Shown piece after piece: positions 10,118 through 44,738 of a DNA stretch of 64,000 bases. Under the pieces are notes generated by a model. The model was not told the origin of the DNA. It saw only the letters and a list, made by a program, of their open reading frames with translations, and did not search any database. Numbering within the stretch: position 1 is the stretch's first letter; every line of letters starts with the position of its first letter. Location: positions 1 through 64,000 of the forward strand of contig JAIOPN010000005.1 of NCBI GenBank assembly GCA_021413865.1, written 5' to 3'. Source of the DNA: Planctomycetota bacterium. Its GTDB lineage: Bacteria > Planctomycetota > Phycisphaerae > Phycisphaerales > Phycisphaeraceae. A program made the translations under genes and the position numbers.

Positions 10118-11281
10118 TCAGAGGTTCAGGTTGAACTCCGGCAGGTACACGAAATACTTCAGCGTGAAGACCCACCGCAGGACCATCTTGAGCGGGAGCA
10201 TGCCCATGAAGACGAACAGCACGGCCATGGTGTAGAACCGGGCGCTGCCCATCTCGATGAAGAGTTTGCGGAGGACCGTGCGGGCCAGGAGCACGGGGAG
10301 GATGAAGACCCAGAAGATGGTGAAGACGATGCCGGCGATCTCGCGGAGGAACGGATTGGTCGGCAGCGGCTTGTTGAGGCCGAAGCCCAGCAGGTTTTTG
10401 CCGTTCCAGAAGAAGTCGCTGAGGTTGACGTTGGTGAGCGGGACCTGGCGGTGCGAGTCCCAGTACTCGTAGGGGCCGAAGAAGTTCCAGTTCGGTCCGC
10501 GGAGGAAGGTTCCGAAGACGATCAGGACGACCCAGAGGATGAGGAACCCGAAGAGCCAGACGGCGATGGCGAAGGGGCGCTGCTTGAGGGTGTAGTAGCC
10601 GTTGCCCTTGGGGTTGGTATCGATGAAAGGCATGGCGATGAGGCCGACGACGATGAGGCCGGGCAGGAGCACGCCGGCCATCCAGGGGTCGAAATAGACG
10701 AGCATTTCCTGGAGGCCAAGGAAGTACCAGGGCGCCTTTGAGGGATTGGGCGGGCCGGCGGGGTTGGCGGGGCTTTCGAGCGGGGCGCGCAGGCCGTAGG
10801 ACCAGAGGATAAGGATCGACGTGGCGAGCAGGAGGCAGATGAGTTCGGTGTAAACCAGGTCGGGCCAGCAGAGGACCTTGTCGTCGCGGGTCTCTTCGAT
10901 GAGGGGCTTGCCCTGGGCGATGCGTTCATCGTTGACGGCCGCCTGGCGGAAGGCCATCCAGAGGCAGACGAGCAGCCCGATGAGCATGATGGTGATGGGG
11001 ACGTTGTCGGGTTTCTGGATGATGCTCAGATAATCGGTGCTGATAGCCATGGAGCCGAAGTAGCCGAGGCAGAAGAGGACGAACAGGAGCGTGGAGACGG
11101 CGGGCCTGGTCCACTGCTTGTAGAGGACGAGCATGAGGATGAAGAGCGGGAGGAAGAAGAACGGGAGGCTGATCTGCGGCTGGGAGACGTAGTTCACGAC
11201 GTGCATGAACTTATCGATGGCGGGGCTGGAGACGAGCGCGTGCCCCGCTTCGGAGGCCAGTGTGGTGATGCTTGTGGGCAT
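10118..11281 (-). CDS. Cytochrome b C-terminal (subunit IV-like) protein of a Rieske/cytochrome b complex
   Basis: A 387-residue integral membrane protein. Its C-terminal part (about 135-290) resembles subunit IV or the C-terminal half of cytochrome b: a soluble loop, the Qo-site motif region SKAPWYFLGLQEML (APWY at 183-186 where PEWY is usual), and GVLLPGLIVVGLIAMPFID. The N-terminal 130 residues add about three membrane helices absent from plant subunit IV, which is about 160 residues long. No CxxCH heme-c motif is seen. It is the last gene of the minus-strand Rieske, cytochrome b (N), cytochrome b (C) operon. It should sit in the inner membrane and form part of the quinol oxidation site. 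Confidence 0.88.
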   Translation of the reverse strand: MPTSITTLASEAGHALVSSPAIDKFMHVVNYVSQPQISLPFFFLPLFILMLVLYKQWTRPAVSTLLFVLFCLGYFGSMAISTDYLSIIQKPDNVPITIMLIGLLVCLWMAFRQAAVNDERIAQGKPLIEETRDDKVLCWPDLVYTELICLLLATSILILWSYGLRAPLESPANPAGPPNPSKAPWYFLGLQEMLVYFDPWMAGVLLPGLIVVGLIAMPFIDTNPKGNGYYTLKQRPFAIAVWLFGFLILWVVLIVFGTFLRGPNWNFFGPYEYWDSHRQVPLTNVNLSDFFWNGKNLLGFGLNKPLPTNPFLREIAGIVFTIFWVFILPVLLARTVLRKLFIEMGSARFYTMAVLFVFMGMLPLKMVLRWVFTLKYFVYLPEFNLNL

Positions 11282-11335: not shown

Positions 11336-12118
11336 TCACATCGGTCCGCTGATGCCGCCGTCCTTGCGGATGCGCCAGAAGTGGATGGCGATGAGCACGG
11401 CCGCGGCGAGCGGCAGCGCGATGCAGTGCAGGACGTAGAAGCGCATCAGCGCGTTCTCGCCGACGCTGGTGCCCGCCAACAGAAGGAAGGCCGCGTCGGA
11501 CTTTGTCGTGACCATGGGCACCCCGCCGGGGAACTTGAGCACGTCGCTGAACGGGCCGCCCATGCCCAGGATCGGCGTGGCCTTGCCCATGTTGGAGCCG
11601 ACGGTGATGGCCCAGATGGCGAGCTGGTCCCAGGGCAGGAGGTAGCCGGTGAAGGAGAGCAGCATGGTGACGACGAGCAGGATGACGCCGACGCCCCAGT
11701 TGAACTCGCGCGGCGGCTTATAAGAGCCGGTGAGGAAGACGCGCATCATGTGGAGCCAGATGGCGATGATCATGGCGTGGGCGCCCCAGCGGTGGATCTC
11801 GCGTAGCAGGCCGAGCGTGACGTGGGCGCGGAGGGCGATGATGTCGGAGAAGGCGTACTCCGGCACGGGCCGGTAGTAGAACATGAGGAGCACGCCGGAG
11901 ATGGTCTCGGCAAGGAAGAGGAAGAACGTGAGCCCGCCCATGCACCAGGTGAAGGAGAGGCGGATGCCGCTCTTGCGGACGGCGACGGGGTGCAGGTGGA
12001 GGAAGACGTTGGACATGATCGCCATCACGCGGGTGCGGCGGTCGCGCGGGATGCCGTGCCGGAAGATGGAGTTCCAGACCTGCGAGGAGCGGACGTAATT
12101 GAGTGCTTTACCGATCAT
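11336..12118 (-). CDS. Cytochrome b6-like subunit (diheme cytochrome b N-terminal)
   Basis: A 260-residue membrane protein matching the cytochrome b6 half of split cytochrome b. Four heme-ligating histidines have b6-like spacing: His109 and His123 (REIHRWGAHAMIIAIWLHMMRVF) and His231 and His246 (FYVLHCIALPLAAAVLIAIH). Cys59 in FTWCMGGLTFF aligns with the b6 cysteine that binds the extra c-type heme (c_n) in b6f complexes. The C-terminus IRKDGGISGPM is also b6-like. The frame is open to 12214, but the ATG at 12118 (MIGKALNYV) with GGAAG upstream is the natural start. It lies between the Rieske fusion and the subunit-IV-like gene. Confidence 0.92.
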   Translation of the reverse strand: MIGKALNYVRSSQVWNSIFRHGIPRDRRTRVMAIMSNVFLHLHPVAVRKSGIRLSFTWCMGGLTFFLFLAETISGVLLMFYYRPVPEYAFSDIIALRAHVTLGLLREIHRWGAHAMIIAIWLHMMRVFLTGSYKPPREFNWGVGVILLVVTMLLSFTGYLLPWDQLAIWAITVGSNMGKATPILGMGGPFSDVLKFPGGVPMVTTKSDAAFLLLAGTSVGENALMRFYVLHCIALPLAAAVLIAIHFWRIRKDGGISGPM

Positions 12119-12247: not shown

Positions 12248-13321
12248 TCAGACGGCGATGAAGGCGCCGGGCAGGTTCCACTGCTGGAGTTCCTGGCGGT
12301 ACTTGATGGACTTGTCCACGACGAGGAACTCGCCGTCGAGCGAGACCTTGAAGCGTTCCAGCGGGCGGGGCGCGGGGCCCTCGAAGTTGACGCCGTTCAT
12401 GTGGTAGCCCGAGCCGTGGCAGGGGCACTTGAATTTCTGGTCGGCCTGGAGCCAGTTGGGGATGCAGCCCAGGTGGGTGCAGATGTCGCTGATGGCGACG
12501 AGCTGGCTGCCCGGGAGGCGGACGATCCAGACGCCGTTGGTGCCCTTGAACTGTTCGTACACGCCGACGTCGGGGAAGTCGGTGACCTTACCCGCACGGA
12601 AGGTGCTGGGCGGTTCCTTGGTGACCTTGGGGACGAAGAAGGTCTGGAAGGCCGCGCCGAAGAGCCCGACGAAGGCGGCGACGCAGCTCCAGCCGATGGC
12701 CAGCGCGATGCTGAACTCGCGGCGGGTCATGTCGGCGGCGCCGGCGAGTGACGCCCCCTTGGAACGGATGCGGTCGGCGATGCTGGGGCGCGGGCGTGCG
12801 TAGCCCGAGCCGACCATGGCGGCGCCGATGGCGTCGGGCGGTGCGCCGTGCGGCAGCGCGGTGGCGATCGCCTCGGCCGGGGCCTTGGCGGGGAGGATGA
12901 CGGTGGCCGCGTTGGGCGTGGCCGCGTGGGGTCTGGTCGCGGCGGTGCGCAGGAGGCCGGCCCACTTGGGATCGGGCGGGCCGTCGTAAACCGGCGCGGC
13001 CTTCTTGGCCGCCGCTCCCCCACCGCCACCGGCCGGTGCGCCGGCGGCCGCGGGTTCTTTGGATTCTTTCCACGCCGCGGGCTCGGGGCCCTCGACGTCG
13101 ATCGTCTCAAACTTGATCACTTCGACCGGGCAGCCCTCGGCGGCGACGATGATGCTGGGCGTCAACGGTTTGGTGAAATCAGCCTTGAGCGCCGGCGGGC
13201 GGATGATGCAGGTCTCTTCCTGCACCTCGAACACCTCGGGGCAGTCGGTCTCGCACGCATCGCAGACGATGCAGCCGGGCGCGATCCAGACCTTGACGAT
13301 TTCCTTGTGAGTCTCGGCCAT
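12248..13321 (-). CDS. Ferredoxin-Rieske fusion iron-sulfur protein
   Basis: A 357-residue protein with two iron-sulfur modules. Residues 1-75 resemble a monocluster 4Fe-4S ferredoxin of the Bacillus/Desulfovibrio type: Cys17, Cys20 and Cys23 (CIVCDAC) plus Cys64 in EGCPVEVIKFETI, with an extra Cys27. An Ala/Pro/Gly-rich linker follows (about 85-200), then one membrane helix (about 203-226) and a Rieske domain with both 2Fe-2S motifs, CTHLGC (281-286) and CPCHGSGY (299-306). It is the first gene of the cytochrome bc-type operon. A typical Rieske subunit has no ferredoxin domain. The likely role is quinol-linked electron transfer, with the ferredoxin perhaps handling a cytoplasmic partner; that part is inference. 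Confidence 0.9.
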   Translation of the reverse strand: MAETHKEIVKVWIAPGCIVCDACETDCPEVFEVQEETCIIRPPALKADFTKPLTPSIIVAAEGCPVEVIKFETIDVEGPEPAAWKESKEPAAAGAPAGGGGGAAAKKAAPVYDGPPDPKWAGLLRTAATRPHAATPNAATVILPAKAPAEAIATALPHGAPPDAIGAAMVGSGYARPRPSIADRIRSKGASLAGAADMTRREFSIALAIGWSCVAAFVGLFGAAFQTFFVPKVTKEPPSTFRAGKVTDFPDVGVYEQFKGTNGVWIVRLPGSQLVAISDICTHLGCIPNWLQADQKFKCPCHGSGYHMNGVNFEGPAPRPLERFKVSLDGEFLVVDKSIKYRQELQQWNLPGAFIAV

Positions 13322-13393
13322 TATTCCGTCACCTTGAATCGTTGCCGTTCCCCATCCCGGGGACGGGCGTTGTCAATAAGCCCGACAGTGTAC

Positions 13394-14557
13394 CTATTGG
13401 CCGGGATTTTTCGCGGTCGGTGGGTTTTCCACGCCCCGCCCGTTTTTCCAGTTCACCAGGCTGACCGCGGCGTTCCGGATCGCCAGATTTTTGTCACTAT
13501 CGGCAATCAACCTGATTCTATTCCACACGAGTTCGCTCTTCATGCCATCAACACGCGCGTCGCCCGCCACGCTCTCGCTGCCGGGAACGGAGGCGAGGGT
13601 CTGGAGTATAACGTGATCCTGATCGGCGGAATCCATGGATTGCCGCGTCTCGCCGCCCAGGTCCGACGAGGGCAGTTTCGCCAGCGCCTCGCGGTTGAGA
13701 AGCACCTCCGCCACCACCCTGCCGCCGTCCTCTTCGCCCAGCCGCGCCAGCGCGATGGCGGCGTTCCACTGCACCACCCTGCCCCCCTGCCCCATCCGTG
13801 TCAGCCCCTCACGCAGGGCCGTCAGCGCGACCGGGTCGCCGGCCTCGCAGAGCACGCCGATCACGCGCGCCGCCTCGGCGGCGACGCTCGGCTCGCGGTC
13901 CTGCACGAGTTTCACGAGCACCGGCATCGCCGCCTGCCGCGCGGCGGCGCGGTTGGGCCACTGCGTCGGCGTCCGGCCGGCGTCAGACCAGGCCGACATC
14001 GCGCGGGGCACCGCCATCCGCACCATGCCCGATGGCGACTGGGCGTATTTCAGGATCGTCCCCTGCGCGTCGGGCTGGCCCAGTTCGCCGACCGCCAGCA
14101 GCAGGAAAGATTGCAGCTCGTACTCCTGCTCGCCGACCGAGGTCTTGAGCACCTCAACCAGTTGCCGGCTCAGGTCCGCCCGCGCCGCCGGGGCTGTGAT
14201 GGTCGGCAGCATCTGCGCGATGTTGGCGGCGGCGTAGCAGCGGTCCTTATAGCGGGGGTCCTGGACGTTGAACGCCATACGGCCCGCACCGCTGGTCTGT
14301 TTGAGCCGCATAAGGTGGTTTTCGATGCTGTCGGGCGCGCCGGCCAGGACGCCGAACAACACCGCGATGCCCACCGCGATGATCACGATTACCGCGGGGA
14401 TGATGACGAGCTGCGCCATCTGCCGTCCGAACGGGGTCGGCGGAGGGGGCACGGGCGGCGCTGCGGGAGTGCCGGGCGCGTCCGAGGCGGGCATCGCCAT
14501 GTCGTCGCCGTCGGGTTCGGTTCCCGGCGTGGGTGCGGGCGGGTTCATGTTTGACAC
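13394..14557 (-). CDS. Membrane-anchored HEAT-repeat protein
   Basis: A 387-residue protein with a Pro/Ala-rich N-terminus (1-42), one membrane helix (about 48-72, QLVIIPAVIVIIAVGIAVLF), and a soluble region of HEAT-like helical repeats (for example EPSVAAEAARVIGVLCEAGD and VVQWNAAIALARLGEEDGGR). HEAT arrays are protein-interaction scaffolds. It lies 72 bp upstream of the ferredoxin-Rieske gene on the same strand, so it may be cotranscribed with the electron-transfer operon and act in its assembly; this is inferred from position only. The start is a GTG at 14557 with GGAAGG 10 bp upstream; an ATG three codons in (14548) is the alternative. Confidence 0.8.
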   Translation of the reverse strand: MSNMNPPAPTPGTEPDGDDMAMPASDAPGTPAAPPVPPPPTPFGRQMAQLVIIPAVIVIIAVGIAVLFGVLAGAPDSIENHLMRLKQTSGAGRMAFNVQDPRYKDRCYAAANIAQMLPTITAPAARADLSRQLVEVLKTSVGEQEYELQSFLLLAVGELGQPDAQGTILKYAQSPSGMVRMAVPRAMSAWSDAGRTPTQWPNRAAARQAAMPVLVKLVQDREPSVAAEAARVIGVLCEAGDPVALTALREGLTRMGQGGRVVQWNAAIALARLGEEDGGRVVAEVLLNREALAKLPSSDLGGETRQSMDSADQDHVILQTLASVPGSESVAGDARVDGMKSELVWNRIRLIADSDKNLAIRNAAVSLVNWKNGRGVENPPTAKNPGQ

Positions 14558-32501: not shown

Positions 32502-35500
32502 ATGGCCAAACGCAAGCGTAAGCGCGTATCGAAGACCTCTGCCCGTCGTCCCATCCACCGCCCGGTGGATTTCCAACCCCTCGAACCGCGCACGCTGCTG
32601 ACCACGATCTTCGGCGGCGAGACGTTTTGGTATCTCGATGCCGACCAGCACACGATCCAGATCACCGTCAGCGGCGACGCCGTCGTCGAACTGATCGCGG
32701 GCGACGTGGACACATCGACGGGCGGCGGCGCGGGCTCACTGATCATTGGCGACATTCCGGGCTTGATTACCTCGAGCCCCTTCCCGGGACGGACCAACGC
32801 AAAGCTGTTCGGCGGCCTGGGTGGTGCCGATGGCATCCGCGTCCTGGGTACCACTCCGATCTCCGACCCGGAATTCGCTCCGGGTTCCATCCCCCGCCCC
32901 AACGGCGGCAGCGCCCAGATCAATCTCGACTCTCTGGCGACCTCCACCGTTTCAGGCCAGAGCTACTCCCTTAACGTCGCGGACCTCGCCCTGACCCAAG
33001 GAACGCGCCGCTACGTCCAGCTCGTCAGCGTTAATAACAACCCGGACTCGGTCAACGCGGGCCACGCCACCGTTGTGGCCAACCTCCAGCAAGCCACGCT
33101 CTCGGAGGACTCTGTCGCGCAGCTGGACTTGTCGCTCAATAATGTCCAGGACGTCTCCATCGACCCGACCGACGGGCTGATGTATGTCATCAACAGTGAA
33201 GCGGGCGGCTCCAGGCTCTATACCGTGGACCGGGAGAGCGGCACCGTGGTGTCGCGCGGCGTCATCACCAATACGAGCACGGGCAAGGCGCTGACCGACG
33301 TTCAGGCGATCGCCTTCAACAACGCGGGCCAACTCTACATCATGACGGGCGACTACGACGGCGATCCTGCCGCCGACGCCAGCGGCGGCACCCTGACCCC
33401 CGCGAGTGGCCAAAGCCCCAACACCGATCCCGCAATCGTCATCGTCAACAAGAATAACGGGCAATTCGCCAACTCTGACGCCCAGCCGATCGTCATTGAT
33501 AACAACAAGACCGCGCTAGCCTACACGGCCATGGCGTTCCACCCCACTCAGCAGACCTTCTACGCGGTCGCCACCGATACGGTTGAAGCAACCGGCGTCC
33601 GCAGGTCCACCCTGCACGTCTTCACGCCGACCACCCCCGGCAACACAATCAGCCCCGAGGTGCGCGGCCAGATATTCTCTGCGGACCTCCCGGTCGCCGT
33701 GGACGGCATCGCCTTTACCCGGAGCGTGGACAACACGGTGGCGCTGATCGGCATGGACAACAGCCAGTCCAGCGACACGGGCGTCCTCAATTCCCGCCTG
33801 ATCGCCATCCCGCTGGGGTCGGTTGCGGGCGGCAACATCAGCGTCGCGGCGCTCAGCGAGGCCGGCTCGGTCGTAACTTCACGCGGCCTGGCGTCCTACA
33901 CGGTACCGGGTGATACCCGCCCGCTGCTGTTCACTGTTGCCCCGAACCAGACCGACATCGTCTCCGTCATTCGCGGCTCGGCGGTCACCCTTCCCACCGA
34001 CAAGGTTGTAGGCACGTCGAACGTCACGCGTTCGGGTGCGGCGGCTTTCAAACCGGTGGTCGGATCGGCCTCGGACGACATGCTCTATTTCGTCGCCGAA
34101 TCCAAGAATGGCGTGAACAACATCGATCAGTTGTATTACGTCGATGTCAATGCCGGCAACCGTTCGCAGATACAGAACAGCCTCACGAGCATCCCCGGAA
34201 CATTAGGCGAATCCGGCGGGACGCCGCGTAACATCACCGCCCTGGCGTGGGACAAGATCGGCAATGATGCCACTCTGTACGCCTACGACGCCGAGTCCGG
34301 AAAAATCGGATCGGCGACCCAGGCAGCGCTCGACGTGAGCAGCAACAACATTAACTTCGTCAACGCGGTGACGATCCGCGGCACCACGGTGACAAACATC
34401 ACCGGGCTGGCATTTGTCGATGAGAACCCCATCGCCGCCGAGACGCAGATCTGGGCGACCCAGGCCGGCGACAGCGCCCCCGCCGGCACCACCGGAGACA
34501 CGGGCGGTCCACCCCAACTGCTTCGGGTCAATCTCTCCACCGGTGCGGCACTCCAACTCGGTTCGTTGCCGGAACCGCTCAACACCGGTCCCGCGGGGGG
34601 AACGGCCGGTGCCGACCTGCAGGGTCTGACCTGGAACCCGACGGTGATCAACCCGTTCACGGGTAAACCCGGCGCCCTCATGGCGGTGGATGCCACGAGC
34701 GACCACCTGGTGCTGCTCGACGCCCGCTTCCGGTTCCCCGCCTCGGACCTGTTCAATATCTATGTTTCCCAGTCCAGTTCCGACACCGACATCCAGATCG
34801 CTGAGAAGCTCGTCAACGCCCAGGGGCAGCCGCTGGTCCCCTTCACCGGTTCGATCGGCGCGGTGAATCAAACGGTTATCGCGGTTCCTCGCCTGGTTCC
34901 CGAGCCCATCCAGCCGGTCTCCGCAGCCCTCAACACGGGTACCGTGTTGATCGGCGCCAGGACCGACACCGGCGATCCAAAAACTTCTGATATCCCCGTG
35001 ACCGTGACGGGCAGCAGCCAGAGCATCGGCACCCGGCCCTCGAACCTGACAGGCGGGAGCATTTACGCCGGGCTTACTATCGGGAAGAGCATCCTCGAAT
35101 ACGCGTCAAGCGCTGCGAGTTTGAGCAGCCGTACGCTTGACGGCACCGGTAACACCATCACCAATGTGCGACACTTGGCGATCTCACGCCAAGACACGAT
35201 GGTCGCTCTGGACGAGGATGGCCTGGGCACCAACAGGCAAACCCTGCCGGGCAACGCCAGCCAGATCGTTACCATCGACCCCGACAGCGGTGAATCAACC
35301 CACGTCGTCACAACGTCATACAACAGCAACCCGCTCTCGGGCGGCGGCGGCATGGCCTACGGCGACGCCAATTTCGATGGCACACAGGAGTTGTACGCTG
35401 TTTTCTCGATCGGCGGCCAGCTATCGCTCGGAACGCTCGACTCGGACACCGGTGTCTTTACCCCGGTCCCGGGCGTTGATCTCTCTGCCTTCCTTGGCAA

Positions 35501-38500
35501 CACCAACGCGGTCTCGTCTATGGCGTTCTCGCCGGGCGCGGGCAGCGTTGCAGGCACGCAGGGGCTCTACCTCCTGGTCAACGACGGCTTCGGCGATCAG
35601 CGCCTTTACGAGGTGACGTATACCGTTGACGGCGACGGCGTGATCAACTCCGTCCTGGGCGCCGCCGCTCTGCCCTCTTTCACCAGCGCCGGAAGCATTG
35701 TCCTGGGGTCGATTGCGTTTGATGCCGCGGGCAACCTGTTTGGGCAGGACACGCGCGGCGGTCGGCTCGTCAGCATCAACAAGGCCACGGGCGATCTGGC
35801 TGCAACGCTTATTACGGAGGCCGGTTCGCTGCGGGCAACCGTCGGAGCCATCGCGTACGACTCGACGACCGACCGGTTCTACGCCGTGGACAACGCTCTG
35901 GGCGCGGCGTCGAGCCAGGTCCGCGGAAGCGGCTCGGGCGTTCTGATGAAATTCGTTGGCACGACCAGCGACTCGGCGCGGGGCCAGAACATCGGGGAGT
36001 TCGCCGTCGGCGGCACGATCATGGGCAAGGTGGACGCCTCGGGGTCCGTTGGTCTGTTTTATGCGGGCTGGATCCTGACGGGCAATGGCCAGGGGCAGTT
36101 GCTGAGTGCCACGTCACCCACCGTGCCGCAGAACTTCAAGGTCGCGGGCGACCTGGATCAACTCGTCACCCAGGGCACGATCGGCTCCGACAATGTGATG
36201 GACGACGCCCGCTTCATCCTGGACTATTACACCGGTTTCGACATGCAGATCGGCGGCCGGCTGGGCGGGATGATCACCAACGGCGGGTTCATCGGCCGCG
36301 TTAGCGTCGCCAACGCCCCGTTGCCCGCCTATGTTCCCGAGAGAACCGTCCCGTATCGCGAGTACGAGTCGCACACGTTCACCATCTTCGCCGACAGTCC
36401 CAATGCGGTGTTTGAGCGGTCGGGGCTGTTCGCGCAGGACGAGTTCCTCAACGACACGTTCGACGGCGCGCAGCGGGTGGGCTCGATCCGCCCCTCGACC
36501 CCCGGCGGTTCAAGCACCGTGGTGATCCAGGGCACGCTGCAGGACCAGTCGCGGACAGGGGAGATGTCCGACTATTACGCCGTCGCGCTCCAAGCCGGGC
36601 AGAAGATCACCGCTCACATCGAGAGCTTCAACCCGTTCGTCTCGCTCTCCCTGGGCGTGTTCGACCCGGAAGGGCGTCTGGTTGCCACCGACCAGAACTT
36701 CGGCGACGGCGGGGACGGCACAACGTTCTCCTTCGTCGCGGATCGCCCCGGCGAATACCGATTCGCGACCGGTGCCTATATCTACGACCTGACCAACGAC
36801 CCCCCCGATGAGCCCTTCACGCCCACGACCAGCGACGCCCCCTACGAGATCACGATCCAGAACGTCGGCGACATCGCGCTGGGCGGCATCGTGGTGCACG
36901 AGAACATGCTCGGCGTGTTCTCCTCCTCGATGGTCAACGTCGAGCGCGGCGATCTGGGCGGCATCACGGTGAGCAAGAAACTGTTCGCCATGGGGAGCGT
37001 GGGGGGCCTCTCCGACGGCGACCTGAGCCTCAACCCGCGGATCAGGACGCAGCAGGGCTCGATCCGTTCGGTGGTTGCCGGTCAGATCGCCACCGAGAAC
37101 GACAACTATCGTGGCCGCAACGACATCGTGGTCATCGATGCCGGGTGGGACATCGGCCTGGTGAGCACCCGCACCGACCTGGGGGGGAGCGGAACCGGCG
37201 TCGTGGGCACGTCGGGCGACGCTGGCGTCGTGCTCCGCAGCGGCCACAACGTGCAGACGATCGACATCGCCGGACAGTTGCTGACCGACCTCCAGGCCAA
37301 GGGTGCTCTCGGTGTGCTCCGTGCCAAATCGATGGACTCGGAACTGGTCCCCAGCACCATCGCGGTCAATAGCGACTCGATCGGCAACGATGGCAAGATC
37401 GACCTGATCAGCGTGGACGGGGATTTCGGAGTAATTGGCGTCGGCGGGCCCCAGATCACGACGGGCCCCGGCGGCAATGTCCGCTATATCGAGGTGGGGG
37501 GCGAACTTTACCAGGACTCTTTCTTCAACTCCTCCCAGAATTCGACGATCCAGGTTCCCGCGGGCCAGTCCTTCAATTTCCGCGATGACTCGGGCGGCAC
37601 CATCGCCATCTCACCGACCGGCCAGACCCCCAACCCGGATTACGATTCCACCGTCACCGGATCGAGTCCGACGATCCCCGCCAGCCTGCTCATCCAGCCC
37701 TACAACATCCGCGGCAGCGGCGGTAGCGTCCTGGTCAGCATCGTCGCTACCGGCAGCGTGAGCATTCGCGGTAATACCCTGGGCAACGGCGGCCCCGTCG
37801 AGATCGCCAAGATCCAGATCGACAATGCCAATGGGGCTCCCGTTACCCTCGACACCAATGGCGTGCCGGTGCAAACCGCCGCCGCCAATGGGGCGACAAC
37901 GGATGTCAGCGTGAACATCGGCGGCGACGGGATTGGCGCCGTGGACGTCCTGAACGTGATCGGCGCCAACTTCAGCAACATCAACAACGCCTCGGGCGGC
38001 GAACTTGCCGGTGTCCGTGCGACGAGCATCGGTTCACTGATCTCCGCGGGCACACTCGGCTTGGTCAAGAGTTCAACCGGGGCCGTCGTCGGCGGCTTCA
38101 ACGTCCTGGATACCGGCGACATCTTCCCCTTCCGCAAGCAGCGCACCGGCATCGTGGCCGGCAACATTATTTCCGCCCGCGCCGGCATGGGCCTGGGCAA
38201 CTTCCTGCTCACGGGGGTTCTCGGAAGCCTCACCGCCAACAGCGACCTCGTGGATGTCCCCGGCGTGTTCGAGGGCATCAATGCCCCGGTTTACACCTCA
38301 TGGAACATCCTTTCTGTGCAGATCGGCGAGGGCATAGCCGATTCGGGCACGGGCGACCCCTCGCTCGCGGGTCTCTACGCGGTGGGCAACATCGGTCCGA
38401 TCACCAACCAGGGGTTGGGTTCGGATATCTACGGCAACGTCGTTGCAGAAGGCGACCTGACCGTACAAAACGTGCCCTTCGGCAATGGCCCGAACGACAA

Positions 38501-41500
38501 GTTCGGCGTCCTGGGCATCACCCTCAACGACGGCGCGATCATCAACGCCGAAATCTTATCGATCAATCTGGTCGATTCGCGTGCCTTCATCGGCAACCGC
38601 ACTATCAAAGGCAACATCGGGAACATCACCCTCAACGGCCGCGGCGGCATCATCGGTTCCTTTTTCGACGCGTCGAATATCGGCAACGTCTCCAACCCCA
38701 GCGGTTTTGGGATACTCAACTCGGCGTTCAGCGGCCCCGCCAATGCCACTTTCGGCAACTTCACCGCCGGCGGCTATGGTTTCCGCTTCGACGTCATCCA
38801 TGGCGGCTCATTCGTCGGCAACATCACAGCCACCGGCGACGGCTCGGTACTGTCTAACACCGCCTTCACGCCATCGGTCCGCACCAGCGAAATCGACCCC
38901 GCGAACGGCACCGTGGCGACGGACTTGGCCAAGGTTCTCGACGGCCAGCCCAAGATCGCCGGTCTCATCCGTGACGTCGCGTTTGTAGCGGTCGGCAACA
39001 TGGGCCAGATCACCGCCTACCGCATCGATTCGACAATCCCCGACGATCCGGCCCTCCGCTCCTACTTCAACGTCGGCAACCAGATCGCGGGCATTAAGAC
39101 GACCTCCACCATCGACGGACTGAACGTCACCACCGGCAACCTCGCCTTGTTTATGACCGGCGGCGACGTTTCTAACATGGACCTCGTGGTCGCCGGCCAG
39201 ATCAAGACGATCTCCATCAACGGCAGCCTTCTCAACTCATCCAGCATCACGGCCGCGGGCCCCAACGGCAACATCGGCACCGCGACCATCACCGGCGATT
39301 TCGCCGGCGTTCTCTCCGCGGACGGCCGCATCGGCAGCCTCACCGTTGGCGGGAATCTCTCGGGGAACATCACGGTCCGCGCCACCAACCTGGGCATTTA
39401 CGGGCTTGAATCACTGGTTGTCGGCGGTTCGTTCACCAACGGCGGGCTGGTCATCAACGGCAGTGTCGGGACCATCCAGACCGCCGGCAGCCTCGGCCAA
39501 CTGGGCGACCGACTGGTCATCGACGGCGACCTGGGCAACCTCATCGTCGGCACCGACCTTTCCATCTCCAACACCATCATGGGCCTGAGCCTTCTGGTCA
39601 ACGGCGACGTGCTCAACGCCAACATCCGCGGCTCCATCACGGGCGACATCGCGATCCACGGCCGGCTCACCAAACTCACCATCAACGCCAACAGCACCTC
39701 CCCCTCGCCCGATCTCATCGCCGGCGACATGCAGGTTGGCCGCGGCATCGGCCAGGCCGTCATCAACAACGGAGACATCGGCGGCGACATCACCTCGGGC
39801 CAGGGGATCGACAAGTTCACCCTCACCAACGGCTCGCTCCTCGACACCTCCACCATCACCAGCTCTTTCGCCGACATCACCGCCTTCACCATCGTCAACG
39901 GCGACCTCCTGGGCGACCTGCGGGCCCCGAACGGCGACATCGTCAAGCTCGCCATCACCGGCTCCGACATCGGTGGCAACTCGCTCATCTCCGCGCGGAA
40001 CATCAAGTCCATCACCATCGAGGGCTCGATCCTCTCGGGGGCGACGATCGTTGCCACCAATCTGCTCGACGTGCTGAAAATTGGCGGATCGATCGCCGCG
40101 GGCGCTTCGGTCTCCGCCGGGCACGGCACCTCGGTCACGGTGGGCGGAGACATGCTCGGCGCCCTGTCCTACGGCCACGCCGCGGCGGGCACCAAGGTCA
40201 GCGTCACGGGCGACCTGGGCGGCTCGACCTCCATCAACGCCAACACCACCCTCGCCGTGGGCGGCAACGTTGCCGACGGCTCGACGGTCCTGATCGGCCG
40301 CAACCTCGACCAGTTCACCGTGGGCGGCACGGTGATGGGCAACGTGCTGGTCAACGGCACGGGCGGCAAGTGGACCCTGGGCGCCGCGGACGGCGCGGTC
40401 GTCACGACGGGATCGGACCTCAAGAGCCTGGAGGTCAAGGGCGCGTTCAACAGCTCTGTCCTGCAGGTCGGCTCCGCCCCGGGCGACGACGGCGCCTTCT
40501 CAAGCACCACCGGCGGCAAGGATCTCAACGAGTCCAGCCGCATGGCCATCCTCTCTTCTTTCAAGGCCGCCTCGATGGACACCTCCATCGTCGCTTCCGG
40601 CGGCGACATCGGCACGGCGGCGGTCAGCGGCGCGATGAACAACAGCTCGATCTCCAGCGGCCTGAGCCTGGGCAGCGGCGCACTGGCCGCGGTAATCGCC
40701 AACGGCTCGCTGGCCTCCCCGGACAGCGCCCGCTTCGGCAACGACCGTGAATTGTTCCGCGGCGACATCAAGAGCGCCACCATCGGCGGCGGCATGACCG
40801 GCAGCTTCATCACCGCGGGCGTCGATGCCGGCGAGGGCGGCGACTTCTCGAACCCCACGGTCCTGCTGAGCCAGTCCGGCCAGCGTCCACTGGGCGGCGG
40901 CCGCAGCGCCATCGCCAAGGTCAGCGCCCTGCTCGACAGCAACTCGGCCGTCCTGGCCGACAGCGGCATCAAGAGCAACGGCGCCACCGGCACCGGAACG
41001 GTCAACGCGAACATCACCTACGACGTCGCCACCAACGGCAGCCTGCTGGGCGGCGTGGCGCTGCAGACGCTCGTCGGTTCGGCCGCCAAATCGTCCCCGC
41101 TGAGCTACGTGCTCAACAACGGCTCGACGGTCACCATCACGGTCACGGGCAACGGCTCTGTAGCCCTGTACGATGAGGCCGGCGCCGACACCGACAACAT
41201 CATCGACACCCTGCTGCTCACCGGCACCGACGCCAAGACCACGGTCAAGATCGTGACCAGCACGCCCAACACGGCGAGCATCGCCCGCATCCTCACCGGC
41301 GACGACGCGGGCATCAACAACCTCACCTTCGACGGCGCCATCTCCGGCGTCAGTGGCGGGACCGGCCCGTCGCTCTGGAACGACGGGGCGATGACTTCGC
41401 TGGTCTTCAACGAGCTGGGCGCCGATTTCAACGGCGTCGTCGGCGGCGACGTCAAGACGCTCACCCTTGGAACGCAAGGCCCGGGCAATCTGCGCATCCT

Positions 41501-44500
41501 GGGCCAGGTGGCCAAGATGACCATCGGCTCGGGCTCGGGTAATTCCCTGCTCGACGCGCTCGGGTCGTATGTAGGCAAGGGCTTCAACGCGATCACCGCG
41601 AACTCCGTCGGCGCGGTTTATGCCCACGCCAACGGCAAGGTTTACTTGCTCGACCCGGCGGTCACGAACGGGGTCATCTCCACCACCGACGTGATCGACG
41701 GGTTCTCCGGCGACAACCTGAACCTCCTGGCGATGGATTTCGGCCCGTCCGACACGCTCTACGGCGTTGCGGCCGTCTTCAACCAAAGCCCCACCGTCCG
41801 AGTCGGTGCGATGGCTTCCGCGCTCAGCGACCTGCACCTGAGCGGCATGGCCGTCAGCCCCAGCGGCGACGTCTACGCGATCCAGCACTTCGATTCCGAT
41901 GGCGACAACACCCCCGATTTCGACCGCCTCGTCCGAATCGAACGCACCACCGGCGGCGTCATCAATGTCGGCCGCGTCCTGGGCTTCTTCGGCGAGACCT
42001 ACCTCAACAACCTCACCCAGCTCGCCTTCGACGACAGCGGCAACCTTTTCGCGCTGACCAACGACATCGACGGCACCGGCCCGACCACCGGCACCGGCGT
42101 GGCGATCGGCCGGCTGGCGATCACCCCGGACAGCAACGGCTTCGTCCGGCTCTCCGGCCCCACCAGCACGAACCTGCCCCCCCGTCTGCTCGACGCCGGC
42201 GGGGTTCTCAACGACTTCCGCGGCCTGGCCGTGAACTCCTCCGGCACCATCTACGCGATCCGCCGCAACCTCCTGGATACGGGCGACCAGCTGGTCACCA
42301 TCTCCACCAGCGGCACGGTTACCGCTGTCGGCGCCAACAGCGGCGCCATCCTGCTCGACGTGGACGGCGACGGCACCGGCGAGACAGCCACCGATATCCA
42401 CGGCATCGGCTTCGATGAAGCGGGCGACATCGTTGTCCTCAATCACCGTAACGGCCAGAGCGAGCTCGTCGGCCTGCGTTCCGCCGACCTGAACACCCCC
42501 ACCAAGTTCCTGCTCCTGCTGGGCGGTTCGGAACTCTCCAACGGGCTGGACTCTTTCGCCATCGGCCGCAACGGCGACTTCTCCACCTTCGCCTACGACC
42601 AGACCACCCCCGGCGGGCTGTTCTTCACCAACAGCGACGAGGCGGTGGTCACGCTCGGCACGATCGACATCTCGGGTGGGCCGAGCAACGGCCGATTCTC
42701 CACCCTCCTGCCCCTGGCGCAGGACGCCAACGGCACCAGCCTCGGCGGCAACATCCAGGGCATGGCCATCGGCGCCGCGGGCCCCGGAAACGTCTTCATC
42801 GCCACCACCGACGGACGCCTCATCCGGTTCAATTCCGACGGCTCGTTCCACAGCGCCCCGGGCGCCTTTACCGACAGCGTCTCCGGCGCCCCGGTCGAGA
42901 TTTCGACCATCGTCTATAACGACGCCACCGGCCTGCTCCTGGGCGTGGACCCGATCCTCAACCGCATCGTCACCATCAACCCGGACACCGCCTCGATCAG
43001 TTCCAATACCTCCGCGGGCGCGCTGGCGGTCGATGCAACCAACCTGGCCTTTGTGCCAACCACCGGCCAGGTCATCACCTTCGACACCGACACGGAGCAG
43101 TTCATCGCGCTCCGCGGCACGAGCGAATCCGCGTTGAGCGGCATTACCGCCAACATGATCAGCACCCTCAACATCACCGGCGCATCTTCGGCACGAGTGG
43201 TGGGGACCAACGGCCTGGGCAAGGTCGCCGTCGGCAACAATTTCACCGGCACCCTTTCCACACCCTACGCCGTCGCCTCCTTCACCACGGGCAACAACTT
43301 CAACGGCTCGCTGGCCGCGGGCGACGACGTCAAGTCTGTCAAGTTCGGCAACGACGTCGGGGGCAACGGCATCGTCACGACCCGCCGCTCGATGGGCTCC
43401 GTCAGCCAGAGTGGCGGCACCTTCTCGGGCAAGCTCGAAGCCATCACCTCAAACGCGATCACCGTCAAGGGCGAGATGACCAACGCCGCGCTGCTCCGCA
43501 TCGTCCAGGCCGCCTCGGGGCTGACCGTCAACGGCGATCTCGAGGGCCGCGTCCTCATCGGCAGCATGGCGGGCAAGGGCCTGAGCTTCAAGGGTGACAT
43601 CGGCTCTAATGCTCAACTCGTCATCGGCGACGACCTCAAGAGCCTGGCGATCAAGGGCAGCGTCGAACAAGGCTCCCTCATCTCCATCGACGGCCTGCTC
43701 ACCAAGCTCACCATCAAGGGCACGGACTCGGGCCTGATCTACGCCCGCCTCGGGATGGGCACGGCAGACATGGGCGCCGCCGACAGCGCCGCGTTTATCG
43801 CGGGCCTGGACATCCAGTCCCTCACCGTCCGCGGCAACGCCACCGACACCGTCTTCGCCTCGGGCCTCTGGCTGGGCGACGACCTGCGTTTCAACACCAG
43901 CGACGACCTCATCACCGGCGGCTCGATCGTCAAGACGCTGGTCAAGGGCAACTTCCAGGACAGCGTGCTGGCCGCGGGCGTGCTGCCCTCGGCATCCGCC
44001 GGTGAGTTCACGCCGGGCGTCTCGGACAACCGCTTCTTCACCGGCAACGCCAACGCCGACCGGATCGACCAGGTCGATTCCGCCGACGCGGGCGGCTTTA
44101 TCTCCAGCAAACTGACCTCGCTGACGATCCAGGGTGCGGCGATCGGCACCGACGTGACCAACGGACGCATTGCCGCCGCGGTCGCCGCGGATGGGCTTGG
44201 CGCGCCGCCCAAGGTCGGCGAGTTCCTCGGCGCTCTCCGCCTCCGCCCGACCGATTCCCCCTACGCCGACCCGGCGGGCCCGCCCCGTTTCCTGGAGGCC
44301 ACCCGCACCAACGACCGCGAGGTCCGGCTTGTCTTCTCCGAGCAGCTCAACACGGGGTCGCTCGTCGCTTCCGCCGACGGCAACAACGACGGCCTGTTCG
44401 ACTCGCCGGGAGACGTCATCGGCTCCATCGCCCTCTCCAGCAACGGCGTCAACATCAGCGACGTCACACTCTTCTACTCCACGGAGAAGACCCCGGAGGG

Positions 44501-44738
44501 CAAGATCCAGAGCATCGTGGTCATCCGCAGGAACTCGGGCGACTTCCCCGCCGACATGGACGTCACGCTCGGCGGCACCGACCCGGTTCACTCGATCTAC
44601 GACCGCTCGGGCCTCCGCTCCACGCTCCGCAACCCGGCCCTGCTCGACAGCGCCCCGGCGAACGGAGACGCCTTCGGCACGGTGCTCGACGGCGACAACG
44701 ACGGCGTCGAGGGCGGCAACGCCACGTTCACCGTCTGA
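32502..44738 (+). CDS. Giant LEPR-XLL surface protein with propeller and beta-solenoid repeats
   Basis: A 4078-residue protein. The N-terminus is very basic (MAKRKRKRVSKTSARR), then LEPRTLL at 27-33, the LEPR-XLL motif of large planctomycete surface proteins; no hydrophobic signal helix is seen. Residues about 165-1200 contain propeller-like repeats (AIAFNNAGQLYIM, IAFDAAGNLFGQD). About 1312-1450 is a pre-peptidase C-terminal-like beta-sandwich (DTFDGAQRVG ... GEYRFATGAYIYD). About 1450-3020 and 3545-3920 are beta-solenoid-like repeats rich in G, N, I, T (SLTVGGNLSGNITV). About 3020-3545 is again propeller-like. The end (3923-4078) has an Ig-like fold with VRLVFSEQLN and a Ca-type DGDNDG. The start has GGGAG 8 bp upstream. 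Probably an extracellular adhesin or envelope protein. Confidence 0.9.
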   Translation: MAKRKRKRVSKTSARRPIHRPVDFQPLEPRTLLTTIFGGETFWYLDADQHTIQITVSGDAVVELIAGDVDTSTGGGAGSLIIGDIPGLITSSPFPGRTNAKLFGGLGGADGIRVLGTTPISDPEFAPGSIPRPNGGSAQINLDSLATSTVSGQSYSLNVADLALTQGTRRYVQLVSVNNNPDSVNAGHATVVANLQQATLSEDSVAQLDLSLNNVQDVSIDPTDGLMYVINSEAGGSRLYTVDRESGTVVSRGVITNTSTGKALTDVQAIAFNNAGQLYIMTGDYDGDPAADASGGTLTPASGQSPNTDPAIVIVNKNNGQFANSDAQPIVIDNNKTALAYTAMAFHPTQQTFYAVATDTVEATGVRRSTLHVFTPTTPGNTISPEVRGQIFSADLPVAVDGIAFTRSVDNTVALIGMDNSQSSDTGVLNSRLIAIPLGSVAGGNISVAALSEAGSVVTSRGLASYTVPGDTRPLLFTVAPNQTDIVSVIRGSAVTLPTDKVVGTSNVTRSGAAAFKPVVGSASDDMLYFVAESKNGVNNIDQLYYVDVNAGNRSQIQNSLTSIPGTLGESGGTPRNITALAWDKIGNDATLYAYDAESGKIGSATQAALDVSSNNINFVNAVTIRGTTVTNITGLAFVDENPIAAETQIWATQAGDSAPAGTTGDTGGPPQLLRVNLSTGAALQLGSLPEPLNTGPAGGTAGADLQGLTWNPTVINPFTGKPGALMAVDATSDHLVLLDARFRFPASDLFNIYVSQSSSDTDIQIAEKLVNAQGQPLVPFTGSIGAVNQTVIAVPRLVPEPIQPVSAALNTGTVLIGARTDTGDPKTSDIPVTVTGSSQSIGTRPSNLTGGSIYAGLTIGKSILEYASSAASLSSRTLDGTGNTITNVRHLAISRQDTMVALDEDGLGTNRQTLPGNASQIVTIDPDSGESTHVVTTSYNSNPLSGGGGMAYGDANFDGTQELYAVFSIGGQLSLGTLDSDTGVFTPVPGVDLSAFLGNTNAVSSMAFSPGAGSVAGTQGLYLLVNDGFGDQRLYEVTYTVDGDGVINSVLGAAALPSFTSAGSIVLGSIAFDAAGNLFGQDTRGGRLVSINKATGDLAATLITEAGSLRATVGAIAYDSTTDRFYAVDNALGAASSQVRGSGSGVLMKFVGTTSDSARGQNIGEFAVGGTIMGKVDASGSVGLFYAGWILTGNGQGQLLSATSPTVPQNFKVAGDLDQLVTQGTIGSDNVMDDARFILDYYTGFDMQIGGRLGGMITNGGFIGRVSVANAPLPAYVPERTVPYREYESHTFTIFADSPNAVFERSGLFAQDEFLNDTFDGAQRVGSIRPSTPGGSSTVVIQGTLQDQSRTGEMSDYYAVALQAGQKITAHIESFNPFVSLSLGVFDPEGRLVATDQNFGDGGDGTTFSFVADRPGEYRFATGAYIYDLTNDPPDEPFTPTTSDAPYEITIQNVGDIALGGIVVHENMLGVFSSSMVNVERGDLGGITVSKKLFAMGSVGGLSDGDLSLNPRIRTQQGSIRSVVAGQIATENDNYRGRNDIVVIDAGWDIGLVSTRTDLGGSGTGVVGTSGDAGVVLRSGHNVQTIDIAGQLLTDLQAKGALGVLRAKSMDSELVPSTIAVNSDSIGNDGKIDLISVDGDFGVIGVGGPQITTGPGGNVRYIEVGGELYQDSFFNSSQNSTIQVPAGQSFNFRDDSGGTIAISPTGQTPNPDYDSTVTGSSPTIPASLLIQPYNIRGSGGSVLVSIVATGSVSIRGNTLGNGGPVEIAKIQIDNANGAPVTLDTNGVPVQTAAANGATTDVSVNIGGDGIGAVDVLNVIGANFSNINNASGGELAGVRATSIGSLISAGTLGLVKSSTGAVVGGFNVLDTGDIFPFRKQRTGIVAGNIISARAGMGLGNFLLTGVLGSLTANSDLVDVPGVFEGINAPVYTSWNILSVQIGEGIADSGTGDPSLAGLYAVGNIGPITNQGLGSDIYGNVVAEGDLTVQNVPFGNGPNDKFGVLGITLNDGAIINAEILSINLVDSRAFIGNRTIKGNIGNITLNGRGGIIGSFFDASNIGNVSNPSGFGILNSAFSGPANATFGNFTAGGYGFRFDVIHGGSFVGNITATGDGSVLSNTAFTPSVRTSEIDPANGTVATDLAKVLDGQPKIAGLIRDVAFVAVGNMGQITAYRIDSTIPDDPALRSYFNVGNQIAGIKTTSTIDGLNVTTGNLALFMTGGDVSNMDLVVAGQIKTISINGSLLNSSSITAAGPNGNIGTATITGDFAGVLSADGRIGSLTVGGNLSGNITVRATNLGIYGLESLVVGGSFTNGGLVINGSVGTIQTAGSLGQLGDRLVIDGDLGNLIVGTDLSISNTIMGLSLLVNGDVLNANIRGSITGDIAIHGRLTKLTINANSTSPSPDLIAGDMQVGRGIGQAVINNGDIGGDITSGQGIDKFTLTNGSLLDTSTITSSFADITAFTIVNGDLLGDLRAPNGDIVKLAITGSDIGGNSLISARNIKSITIEGSILSGATIVATNLLDVLKIGGSIAAGASVSAGHGTSVTVGGDMLGALSYGHAAAGTKVSVTGDLGGSTSINANTTLAVGGNVADGSTVLIGRNLDQFTVGGTVMGNVLVNGTGGKWTLGAADGAVVTTGSDLKSLEVKGAFNSSVLQVGSAPGDDGAFSSTTGGKDLNESSRMAILSSFKAASMDTSIVASGGDIGTAAVSGAMNNSSISSGLSLGSGALAAVIANGSLASPDSARFGNDRELFRGDIKSATIGGGMTGSFITAGVDAGEGGDFSNPTVLLSQSGQRPLGGGRSAIAKVSALLDSNSAVLADSGIKSNGATGTGTVNANITYDVATNGSLLGGVALQTLVGSAAKSSPLSYVLNNGSTVTITVTGNGSVALYDEAGADTDNIIDTLLLTGTDAKTTVKIVTSTPNTASIARILTGDDAGINNLTFDGAISGVSGGTGPSLWNDGAMTSLVFNELGADFNGVVGGDVKTLTLGTQGPGNLRILGQVAKMTIGSGSGNSLLDALGSYVGKGFNAITANSVGAVYAHANGKVYLLDPAVTNGVISTTDVIDGFSGDNLNLLAMDFGPSDTLYGVAAVFNQSPTVRVGAMASALSDLHLSGMAVSPSGDVYAIQHFDSDGDNTPDFDRLVRIERTTGGVINVGRVLGFFGETYLNNLTQLAFDDSGNLFALTNDIDGTGPTTGTGVAIGRLAITPDSNGFVRLSGPTSTNLPPRLLDAGGVLNDFRGLAVNSSGTIYAIRRNLLDTGDQLVTISTSGTVTAVGANSGAILLDVDGDGTGETATDIHGIGFDEAGDIVVLNHRNGQSELVGLRSADLNTPTKFLLLLGGSELSNGLDSFAIGRNGDFSTFAYDQTTPGGLFFTNSDEAVVTLGTIDISGGPSNGRFSTLLPLAQDANGTSLGGNIQGMAIGAAGPGNVFIATTDGRLIRFNSDGSFHSAPGAFTDSVSGAPVEISTIVYNDATGLLLGVDPILNRIVTINPDTASISSNTSAGALAVDATNLAFVPTTGQVITFDTDTEQFIALRGTSESALSGITANMISTLNITGASSARVVGTNGLGKVAVGNNFTGTLSTPYAVASFTTGNNFNGSLAAGDDVKSVKFGNDVGGNGIVTTRRSMGSVSQSGGTFSGKLEAITSNAITVKGEMTNAALLRIVQAASGLTVNGDLEGRVLIGSMAGKGLSFKGDIGSNAQLVIGDDLKSLAIKGSVEQGSLISIDGLLTKLTIKGTDSGLIYARLGMGTADMGAADSAAFIAGLDIQSLTVRGNATDTVFASGLWLGDDLRFNTSDDLITGGSIVKTLVKGNFQDSVLAAGVLPSASAGEFTPGVSDNRFFTGNANADRIDQVDSADAGGFISSKLTSLTIQGAAIGTDVTNGRIAAAVAADGLGAPPKVGEFLGALRLRPTDSPYADPAGPPRFLEATRTNDREVRLVFSEQLNTGSLVASADGNNDGLFDSPGDVIGSIALSSNGVNISDVTLFYSTEKTPEGKIQSIVVIRRNSGDFPADMDVTLGGTDPVHSIYDRSGLRSTLRNPALLDSAPANGDAFGTVLDGDNDGVEGGNATFTV

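Follow-up and report, generated by a model that had tools for sequence, protein, structure and literature searches.

The window analyzed here, a 64,000-nucleotide stretch of DNA from a planctomycete of the class Phycisphaerae, encodes on its reverse strand a protein that joins a ferredoxin domain to a Rieske domain. The ferredoxin-Rieske gene (positions 12248..13321) is a single open reading frame of 357 amino acids plus a stop codon: the frame runs uninterrupted from an ATG at 13321, and a Shine-Dalgarno-like stretch, AAGGTG, is located 8 nt upstream of this start (13330-13335). From its N-terminus the protein comprises a monocluster [4Fe-4S] ferredoxin (residues 1-78), a flexible linker of ~117 residues, a twin-arginine motif with a membrane helix (residues ~198-226) and a full Rieske domain. 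Identical two-domain architecture is displayed by all 49 aligned full-length homologues, with the Fer4_13 and Rieske families matched in each of them. No NCBIfam equivalog scores above cut-off for the protein.

The gene belongs to an operon in which the HEAT-repeat protein, the ferredoxin-Rieske protein, cytochrome b6 and subunit IV follow one another on one strand with short gaps, an order conserved in most related loci. The first operon gene (13394..14557, reverse strand) encodes a HEAT-repeat protein with an N-terminal membrane anchor (PF13646, E 1.3e-11). Its homologue lies directly upstream of the ferredoxin-Rieske gene in most related loci, and it is possible that the protein serves as an assembly factor or a subunit. 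Directly downstream of the ferredoxin-Rieske gene, cytochrome b is split between two genes, b6 (PF00033) and subunit IV (PF00032). The former, with its start set at the ATG at 12118, encodes a b6-type four-helix cytochrome b (11336..12118, reverse strand; PF00033 E 2e-38; NCBIfam cytochrome b6 / ExtP) with conserved histidine ligands. Its Cys59 corresponds to Cys35 of b6, the heme cN position, and 61 of 64 b6 sequences have this heme-cN cysteine. The latter encodes a subunit IV-like cytochrome b C-terminal protein (10118..11281, reverse strand; PF00032 above cut-off) with extra N-terminal helices, a KAPWYFLGLQE motif and about 8 helices by hydrophobicity. In three related loci from a single genus (g37 of family f5), the ferredoxin-Rieske gene stands apart from the b6 and subunit IV genes, which sit on another contig. 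Elsewhere in the window, positions 32502-44738 hold an ORF of 4078 aa for which Pfam returns nothing at E <= 1e-4.

Iron-sulfur domains, linker and membrane anchor

The N-terminal domain (residues 1-78; 13088..13321, reverse strand) is a monocluster [4Fe-4S] ferredoxin; cluster binding itself is inferred from the sequence and the predicted fold. On the window protein, PF13370 (Fer4_13) scores slightly under its 24.5-bit cut-off (21.2 bits, E 5e-4), and the family is matched in 49/49 homologues, each at E <= 0.01, with a best E of 4.2e-8. Searched against the PDB, a profile of just the N-terminal domain finds the monocluster ferredoxins 1iqz and 1vjw. The AF2 model of residues 1-80 has a mean pLDDT of 87, and its top Foldseek matches are 1fxr, 1iqz, 2z8q and 1vjw, with a probability of 1.00 and E-values of only about 0.006-0.03; the same search run on the full-length protein returns mainly Rieske-domain matches and is uninformative on the ferredoxin. 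Four cysteines, C17, C20, C23 and C64, form a C-x2-C-x2-C...CP pattern kept in every one of the 49 homologues. Invariance, profile matches and fold matches together rule out a chance CxxC motif. The position of C27 is occupied by Cys, Ala or Ser (21, 21 and 7 of the 49 sequences, respectively), and since it is replaced in 28 of them, Cys27 is rejected as a cluster ligand. A fifth cysteine of the domain, Cys38 (13208-13210), is likewise found in 49/49 homologues; it is not a canonical ligand and is also present in related standalone ferredoxins.

The fused domain shares its ligand pattern and fold with the ferredoxins of Bacillus thermoproteolyticus (1iqz), Thermotoga maritima (1vjw) and Pyrococcus furiosus (2z8q), although 1iqz has Ala-Pro where the window ferredoxin has Cys27-Pro. 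These three proteins are free and soluble, whereas the window ferredoxin is tethered to a Rieske protein and contains the extra invariant Cys38. It is the sole Fer4_13 match in the window's genome, other ferredoxin types being outside the search. The ferredoxin charge ranges from -3 to -14 among the members and equals -9 in the window protein. Codon comparison of close pairs gives a dN/dS of 0.02-0.09 for the ferredoxin domain, and mean pairwise identity reaches 0.67 in the ferredoxin and 0.61 in the Rieske domain, with 0.33 in the linker. Both domains are under purifying selection.

The C-terminal portion of the protein (residues 233-357; 12251..12625, reverse strand) is a Rieske [2Fe-2S] domain with a planctomycetal C-terminal tail. 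It matches PF00355 above cut-off (E 2.5e-9). In the PDB it matches 9rk3 (E 6.7e-35; 51% identical over the structural match), which is the soluble domain of the Kuenenia (anammox) protein kustd1480. The two Cys and two His ligands, located at C281, H283, C286 and in the C299, C301/H302 region (CTHLGC / CPCHGSGY), are invariant in 49/49 homologues. Two potential-raising residues, Ser304 and Tyr306, are both present in the window Rieske domain; among the homologues the serine is universal (49/49), and the tyrosine (20/49) alternates with phenylalanine (29/49).

The two domains are separated by a low-complexity linker (residues 79-195; 12737..13087, reverse strand) of low sequence identity, in which only short PDPKW..LL and PPDA motifs are conserved. 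Its predicted structure is of low confidence, with pLDDT mostly 38-61 in residues 89-150 and rising up to about 80 from residue 151. The linker is followed by a twin-arginine motif and a single transmembrane helix (residues 196-226; 12644..12736, reverse strand). The motif residues R200 and R201 are kept in 48 and 49 of the 49 homologues, respectively, and the sole hydrophobic helix (hydrophobicity peak at residues 203-221) comes directly after them. There is no N-terminal signal, as the ferredoxin fold begins at the very start of the protein. Tat-dependent Rieske proteins keep the parts before the signal in the cytoplasm and export the parts after it. The ferredoxin is very likely to reside on the cytoplasmic N side of the membrane and the Rieske centre on the P side, because an N-terminal signal is missing and the export signal and anchor come after the ferredoxin and linker; this topology is inferred from sequence alone, and the orientation is unmeasured.

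An earlier, sequence-only reading of the gene had claimed that one protein carries a ferredoxin and a Rieske domain, that Cys17, 20, 23 and Cys64 bind the 4Fe-4S cluster, that the Rieske signature is full, and that a low-complexity linker and one membrane helix lie in between. These claims held, given the intact ORF, the profile matches and the recurrence of the protein in relatives, the invariance of both ligand sets against the variable C27, and the single helix; Cys38 was absent from that reading. The further claim of iron-sulfur centres on both sides of the membrane is supported by inference only, from the internal RR/TM helix and the missing N-terminal signal. That the operon has no cytochrome c1 or f gene also held for the operon: no CXXCH motif occurs in any ORF of the picked gene set over the whole window.

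Distribution of the fusion and its relation to known complexes

The ferredoxin-Rieske fusion is present in about 50 of the 396 sampled Phycisphaerae genomes, representing at least seven families. Among 60 relatives searched, both parts have homologues in a further 17 genomes; in 16 the protein is full-length, at 60-74% identity, and in one the frame is broken. Named genomes contributed 51 full-length fusion ORFs on MAG contigs, nearly all labelled Phycisphaerae/Phycisphaeraceae or Planctomycetota. The sequence-only reading had called for a search of the architecture across Planctomycetota, and this search found the fusion in Phycisphaerae and not in the other planctomycete classes examined. 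Listed matches with an alignable ferredoxin part from 391 genomes across the phylum all come from Phycisphaerae, and 25 planctomycete loci outside the class display N-terminal extensions, often of low complexity, with no ferredoxin motif upstream of the Rieske domain, which rules out a phylum-wide fusion. Six Phycisphaerae genomes (one genus of family f97, and G576) have this Rieske type without the ferredoxin domain, and in two operons of this kind (L095 and L096) no ferredoxin was found in the operon. Three genomes contain a soluble ferredoxin of this family and no b6 of this type; therefore, the ferredoxin fold has other uses. We also considered ORFs of ~280 aa from Bacteriovoracaceae as further fusions and rejected them: they have an N-terminal hydrophobic segment, a C-terminal ferredoxin and no Rieske motif. 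Such proteins occur at 13 of the collected loci from Bacteriovoracaceae/Bdellovibrionota, where the C-terminal ferredoxin shows 50-65% identity to the fused one and neither Rieske nor cytochrome b genes are found nearby.

Fusion is not the only arrangement in which a ferredoxin accompanies the complex. Four loci of family f11 encode a plain Rieske protein and a separate monocluster ferredoxin, the gene for which is located shortly downstream of subunit IV on the same strand. The separate ferredoxins represent a different ferredoxin subgroup without Cys38, and in the ferredoxin tree—small, of low resolution, based on a short alignment and without support values—they group away from the fused ferredoxins. 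They are likely to be an independent recruitment, as far as a tree of such resolution can tell. G717, the fifth genome of this family, has a fusion in which ~25 aa are all that separate the ferredoxin from the RR motif; with so short a linker, its ferredoxin has to act near the membrane anchor. After subunit IV in this genome (L088:10910-11095) there is also a ferredoxin-like ORF, N-masked after its first residues.

The closest relatives of the complex outside the class come from anammox bacteria. Kuenenia stuttgartiensis has two Rieske/cytochrome b complexes, Kustd1480-1485 and Kuste4569-4574, for which NAD(P) chemistry at the N side has been proposed (PMC12954380). They share with the window complex a homologous Rieske protein, a b6-type cytochrome b, an enlarged subunit IV, a multiheme cytochrome c in place of c1/f and an N-side module. 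The module itself differs: in Kuenenia a separate gene encodes it as a GltD-like NAD(P) oxidoreductase, whereas in the window the Rieske protein carries it as a fused monocluster ferredoxin. The related anammox-type Rieske proteins examined are about 168 aa long and have no ferredoxin domain, in contrast to the 357-aa window protein. An anammox-type locus in our set (L202) reads Rieske, b6, NAD(P) oxidoreductase (GltD-like, with Fer4 domains), subunit IV, octaheme cytochrome, and three loci from other planctomycete families read Rieske, b6, subunit IV, octaheme cytochrome with no N-side module. Neither the window nor the Phycisphaerae loci with listed ORFs have an ORF for a GltD-like NAD(P) oxidoreductase next to the complex. 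In most Phycisphaerae with the complex, the ferredoxin is part of the Rieske protein. It is likely that the complex acquired a low-potential redox module on its N side on at least two, possibly three, occasions.

The components on the P side include a candidate for the missing cytochrome. In most other Phycisphaerae families, a gene for an octaheme cytochrome c (~1400-1580 aa) adjoins the subunit IV gene. It is not adjacent in the clade of the window; the window's own genome encodes a homologue of about 1800 aa with 8 CXXCH motifs on contig 55, where the CoxB and CoxA genes of an aa3-type oxidase come immediately after it. Across 61 relatives, the octaheme cytochrome is present in 18 of 18 genomes with the ferredoxin-Rieske protein and in 2 of 43 without it (Fisher p about 1e-13, shared ancestry uncorrected). 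Since the octaheme gene follows subunit IV in most other families and occurs in the window's genome, an octaheme cytochrome encoded elsewhere is likely the best explanation for the missing c1/f; its physical association with the complex is inferred.

The gene thus encodes the Rieske subunit of a planctomycetal b6f-type Rieske/cytochrome b complex, composed of Rieske protein, b6, subunit IV and octaheme cytochrome c in place of c1/f, and bearing an N-terminal ferredoxin. With the cytochrome b6f of cyanobacteria and chloroplasts it shares b6, subunit IV, a single-helix Rieske protein and the heme-cN cysteine, and in b6f, too, ferredoxin is a proposed N-side donor, in cyclic flow. Unlike b6f, the window complex has an octaheme cytochrome c for cytochrome f, no cytochrome f or small Pet subunits having been found, and its ferredoxin is covalently attached and placed in a respiratory menaquinone setting. 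Cytochrome bc1 (complex III) resembles it in the Tat-type anchor of the Rieske protein and in electrons ending at an aa3-type oxidase, but differs in that the window complex has a split cytochrome b (b6 + IV), no cytochrome c1 and an N-terminal ferredoxin. In the open-access literature searched (subscription papers were outside its scope), we came across no account of a quinol-oxidising complex with a ferredoxin-Rieske fusion. The parts are each of a known kind; it is the combination of ferredoxin and Rieske that is new.

Possible roles of the tethered ferredoxin

That the tethered ferredoxin exchanges electrons with N-side cofactors, most likely donating them into menaquinone, is the reading we favour, with a confidence that does not tip clearly to either side; both the direction and the partner are inferred. 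In this scheme the ferredoxin would act as an electron-exchange module of the complex, docking near the N-side surface of b6/IV, and would give electrons to, or take them from, one of three hemes: cN, bN or the additional N-side heme that was predicted in the anammox complexes. The 2-oxoacid:ferredoxin oxidoreductases would reduce the ferredoxin and the complex would oxidise it, the electrons entering menaquinone at the Qn site with proton uptake from the cytoplasm. The Rieske arm would carry menaquinol electrons to the octaheme cytochrome c and on to the aa3 oxidase. Such a route would resemble the ferredoxin-dependent cyclic route proposed for photosynthetic b6f.

The scheme is favoured because the residues of an N-side path are kept, the charges of the presumed partners are opposite, 2-oxoacid oxidoreductases are present and the domain is the sole Fer4_13 match in the genome. 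An extra N-side heme was predicted by AlphaFold3 in Kustd1481 at H62, R266 and K267 (PMC12954380); the b6 of the anammox-type locus L202 has these residues at the same numbers, and they correspond to H41, R251 and K252 of the window b6, the positions of the latter two being read off the C-terminus of the sequence. The same site is found in the examined planctomycete b6 sequences without an N-side module, and it is therefore not specific to complexes with ferredoxin. The N-terminal segment of b6 has a charge of +8 against the acidic ferredoxin (-9). POR-family 2-oxoacid:ferredoxin oxidoreductases, futalosine-type menaquinone genes and complex I are all present in the window's genome. Further support comes from selection on both domains, the second ferredoxin link in family f11, the short linker of G717, the N-side module of the anammox complexes and the octaheme partner. 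The model of the whole protein has a pTM of 0.44 with low inter-domain confidence, and there is no experimental or structural docking evidence for the ferredoxin. Of the three b6 sequences without the heme-cN cysteine, two belong to complexes with a ferredoxin, fused in L088 and separate in L093, which rules out a strict requirement of heme cN for having the ferredoxin. Against the favoured mechanism stand the six Phycisphaerae genomes in which the Rieske protein has no ferredoxin domain, and the existence of soluble ferredoxins without b6. Complex I is an alternative outlet for the same electrons, and their direct entry into menaquinone would waste energy.

A Rieske protein with a cytoplasmic ferredoxin in Phycisphaerae suggests that soluble metabolism is wired to the membrane electron-transport chain within the complex itself. 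Photosynthesis research has long asked whether ferredoxin hands electrons straight to b6f-type complexes on the negative side, and a family with the ferredoxin tied to the complex makes this testable in one polypeptide. Planctomycetal Rieske/cytochrome b complexes appear to have gained their N-side modules by more than one route: anammox bacteria have an NAD(P) oxidoreductase, most Phycisphaerae with the complex a fused ferredoxin, and one family a separate ferredoxin gene. This fits the idea that these complexes go beyond a plain Q cycle.

Electron bifurcation is a rival with some support, although we regard it as unlikely. Here the two electrons of menaquinol would take separate paths: one through the high-potential Rieske centre towards the octaheme cytochrome c and the aa3 oxidase, the other through hemes bP and bN onto the tethered ferredoxin, which would thereby be reduced. 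In kustd1480 and kuste4569, the closest characterised Rieske proteins, the potentials are +335 and +303 mV; on this basis it was argued that the potential of heme bP could be as low as -475 mV, and bifurcation to NAD(P) was proposed (PMC12954380). Ser304 and Tyr306, both potential-raising, are retained in the window protein, and the high-potential branch terminates at an oxygen-reducing oxidase. If true, a complex III would make a low-potential reductant under aerobic respiration. However, menaquinone reduction at Qn would need suppressing, which the anammox authors also call the larger problem (PMC12954380), and a cytoplasmic ferredoxin consumer was not found in the operon. Monocluster ferredoxins usually have potentials below -300 mV, a further point against this reading.

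A role in docking or regulation is also improbable. The ferredoxin would then sense redox state or oxygen, or serve as a docking site for a cytoplasmic enzyme, for instance 2-oxoglutarate:ferredoxin oxidoreductase or complex I, and would not itself pass electrons directly to the b hemes. The long flexible linker of most members, with a reach of several tens of angstroms, and the soluble ferredoxin relatives in genomes without the complex speak for it. By contrast, the separately encoded ferredoxin of f11 cannot tether, the short linker of G717 limits reach, and all four cluster cysteines are kept without exception. Still less credible is a role in biogenesis alone, where the fusion would only aid assembly or stabilise the protein, perhaps by promoting Fe-S insertion ahead of Tat export, and ferredoxin electron transfer would be incidental. 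A Rieske domain has to fold around its cluster in the cytoplasm prior to Tat export, and an Fe-S domain on the same polypeptide might couple the two, for which there is no direct support here; against it, Rieske proteins elsewhere in the phylum have N-terminal extensions without a cluster motif and evidently mature, and the f11 ferredoxin is a separate protein.

The last alternative, an error of sequencing or assembly joining two neighbouring genes, finds some support in two related MAG loci (G052 and G537) with the ferredoxin and Rieske parts in different frames and a break in or after the linker, but is all but excluded because the same single ORF recurs in independent assemblies from at least seven families, with the broken copies as exceptions. 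The sequence-only reading had stated that a frameshift fusing two genes, or the absence of the fusion from close relatives, would refute it, and neither was borne out, as close relatives carry the fusion. For the out-of-frame parts in G052 (L024 / L122) and G537 (L097), a real split and an assembly error both remain possible.
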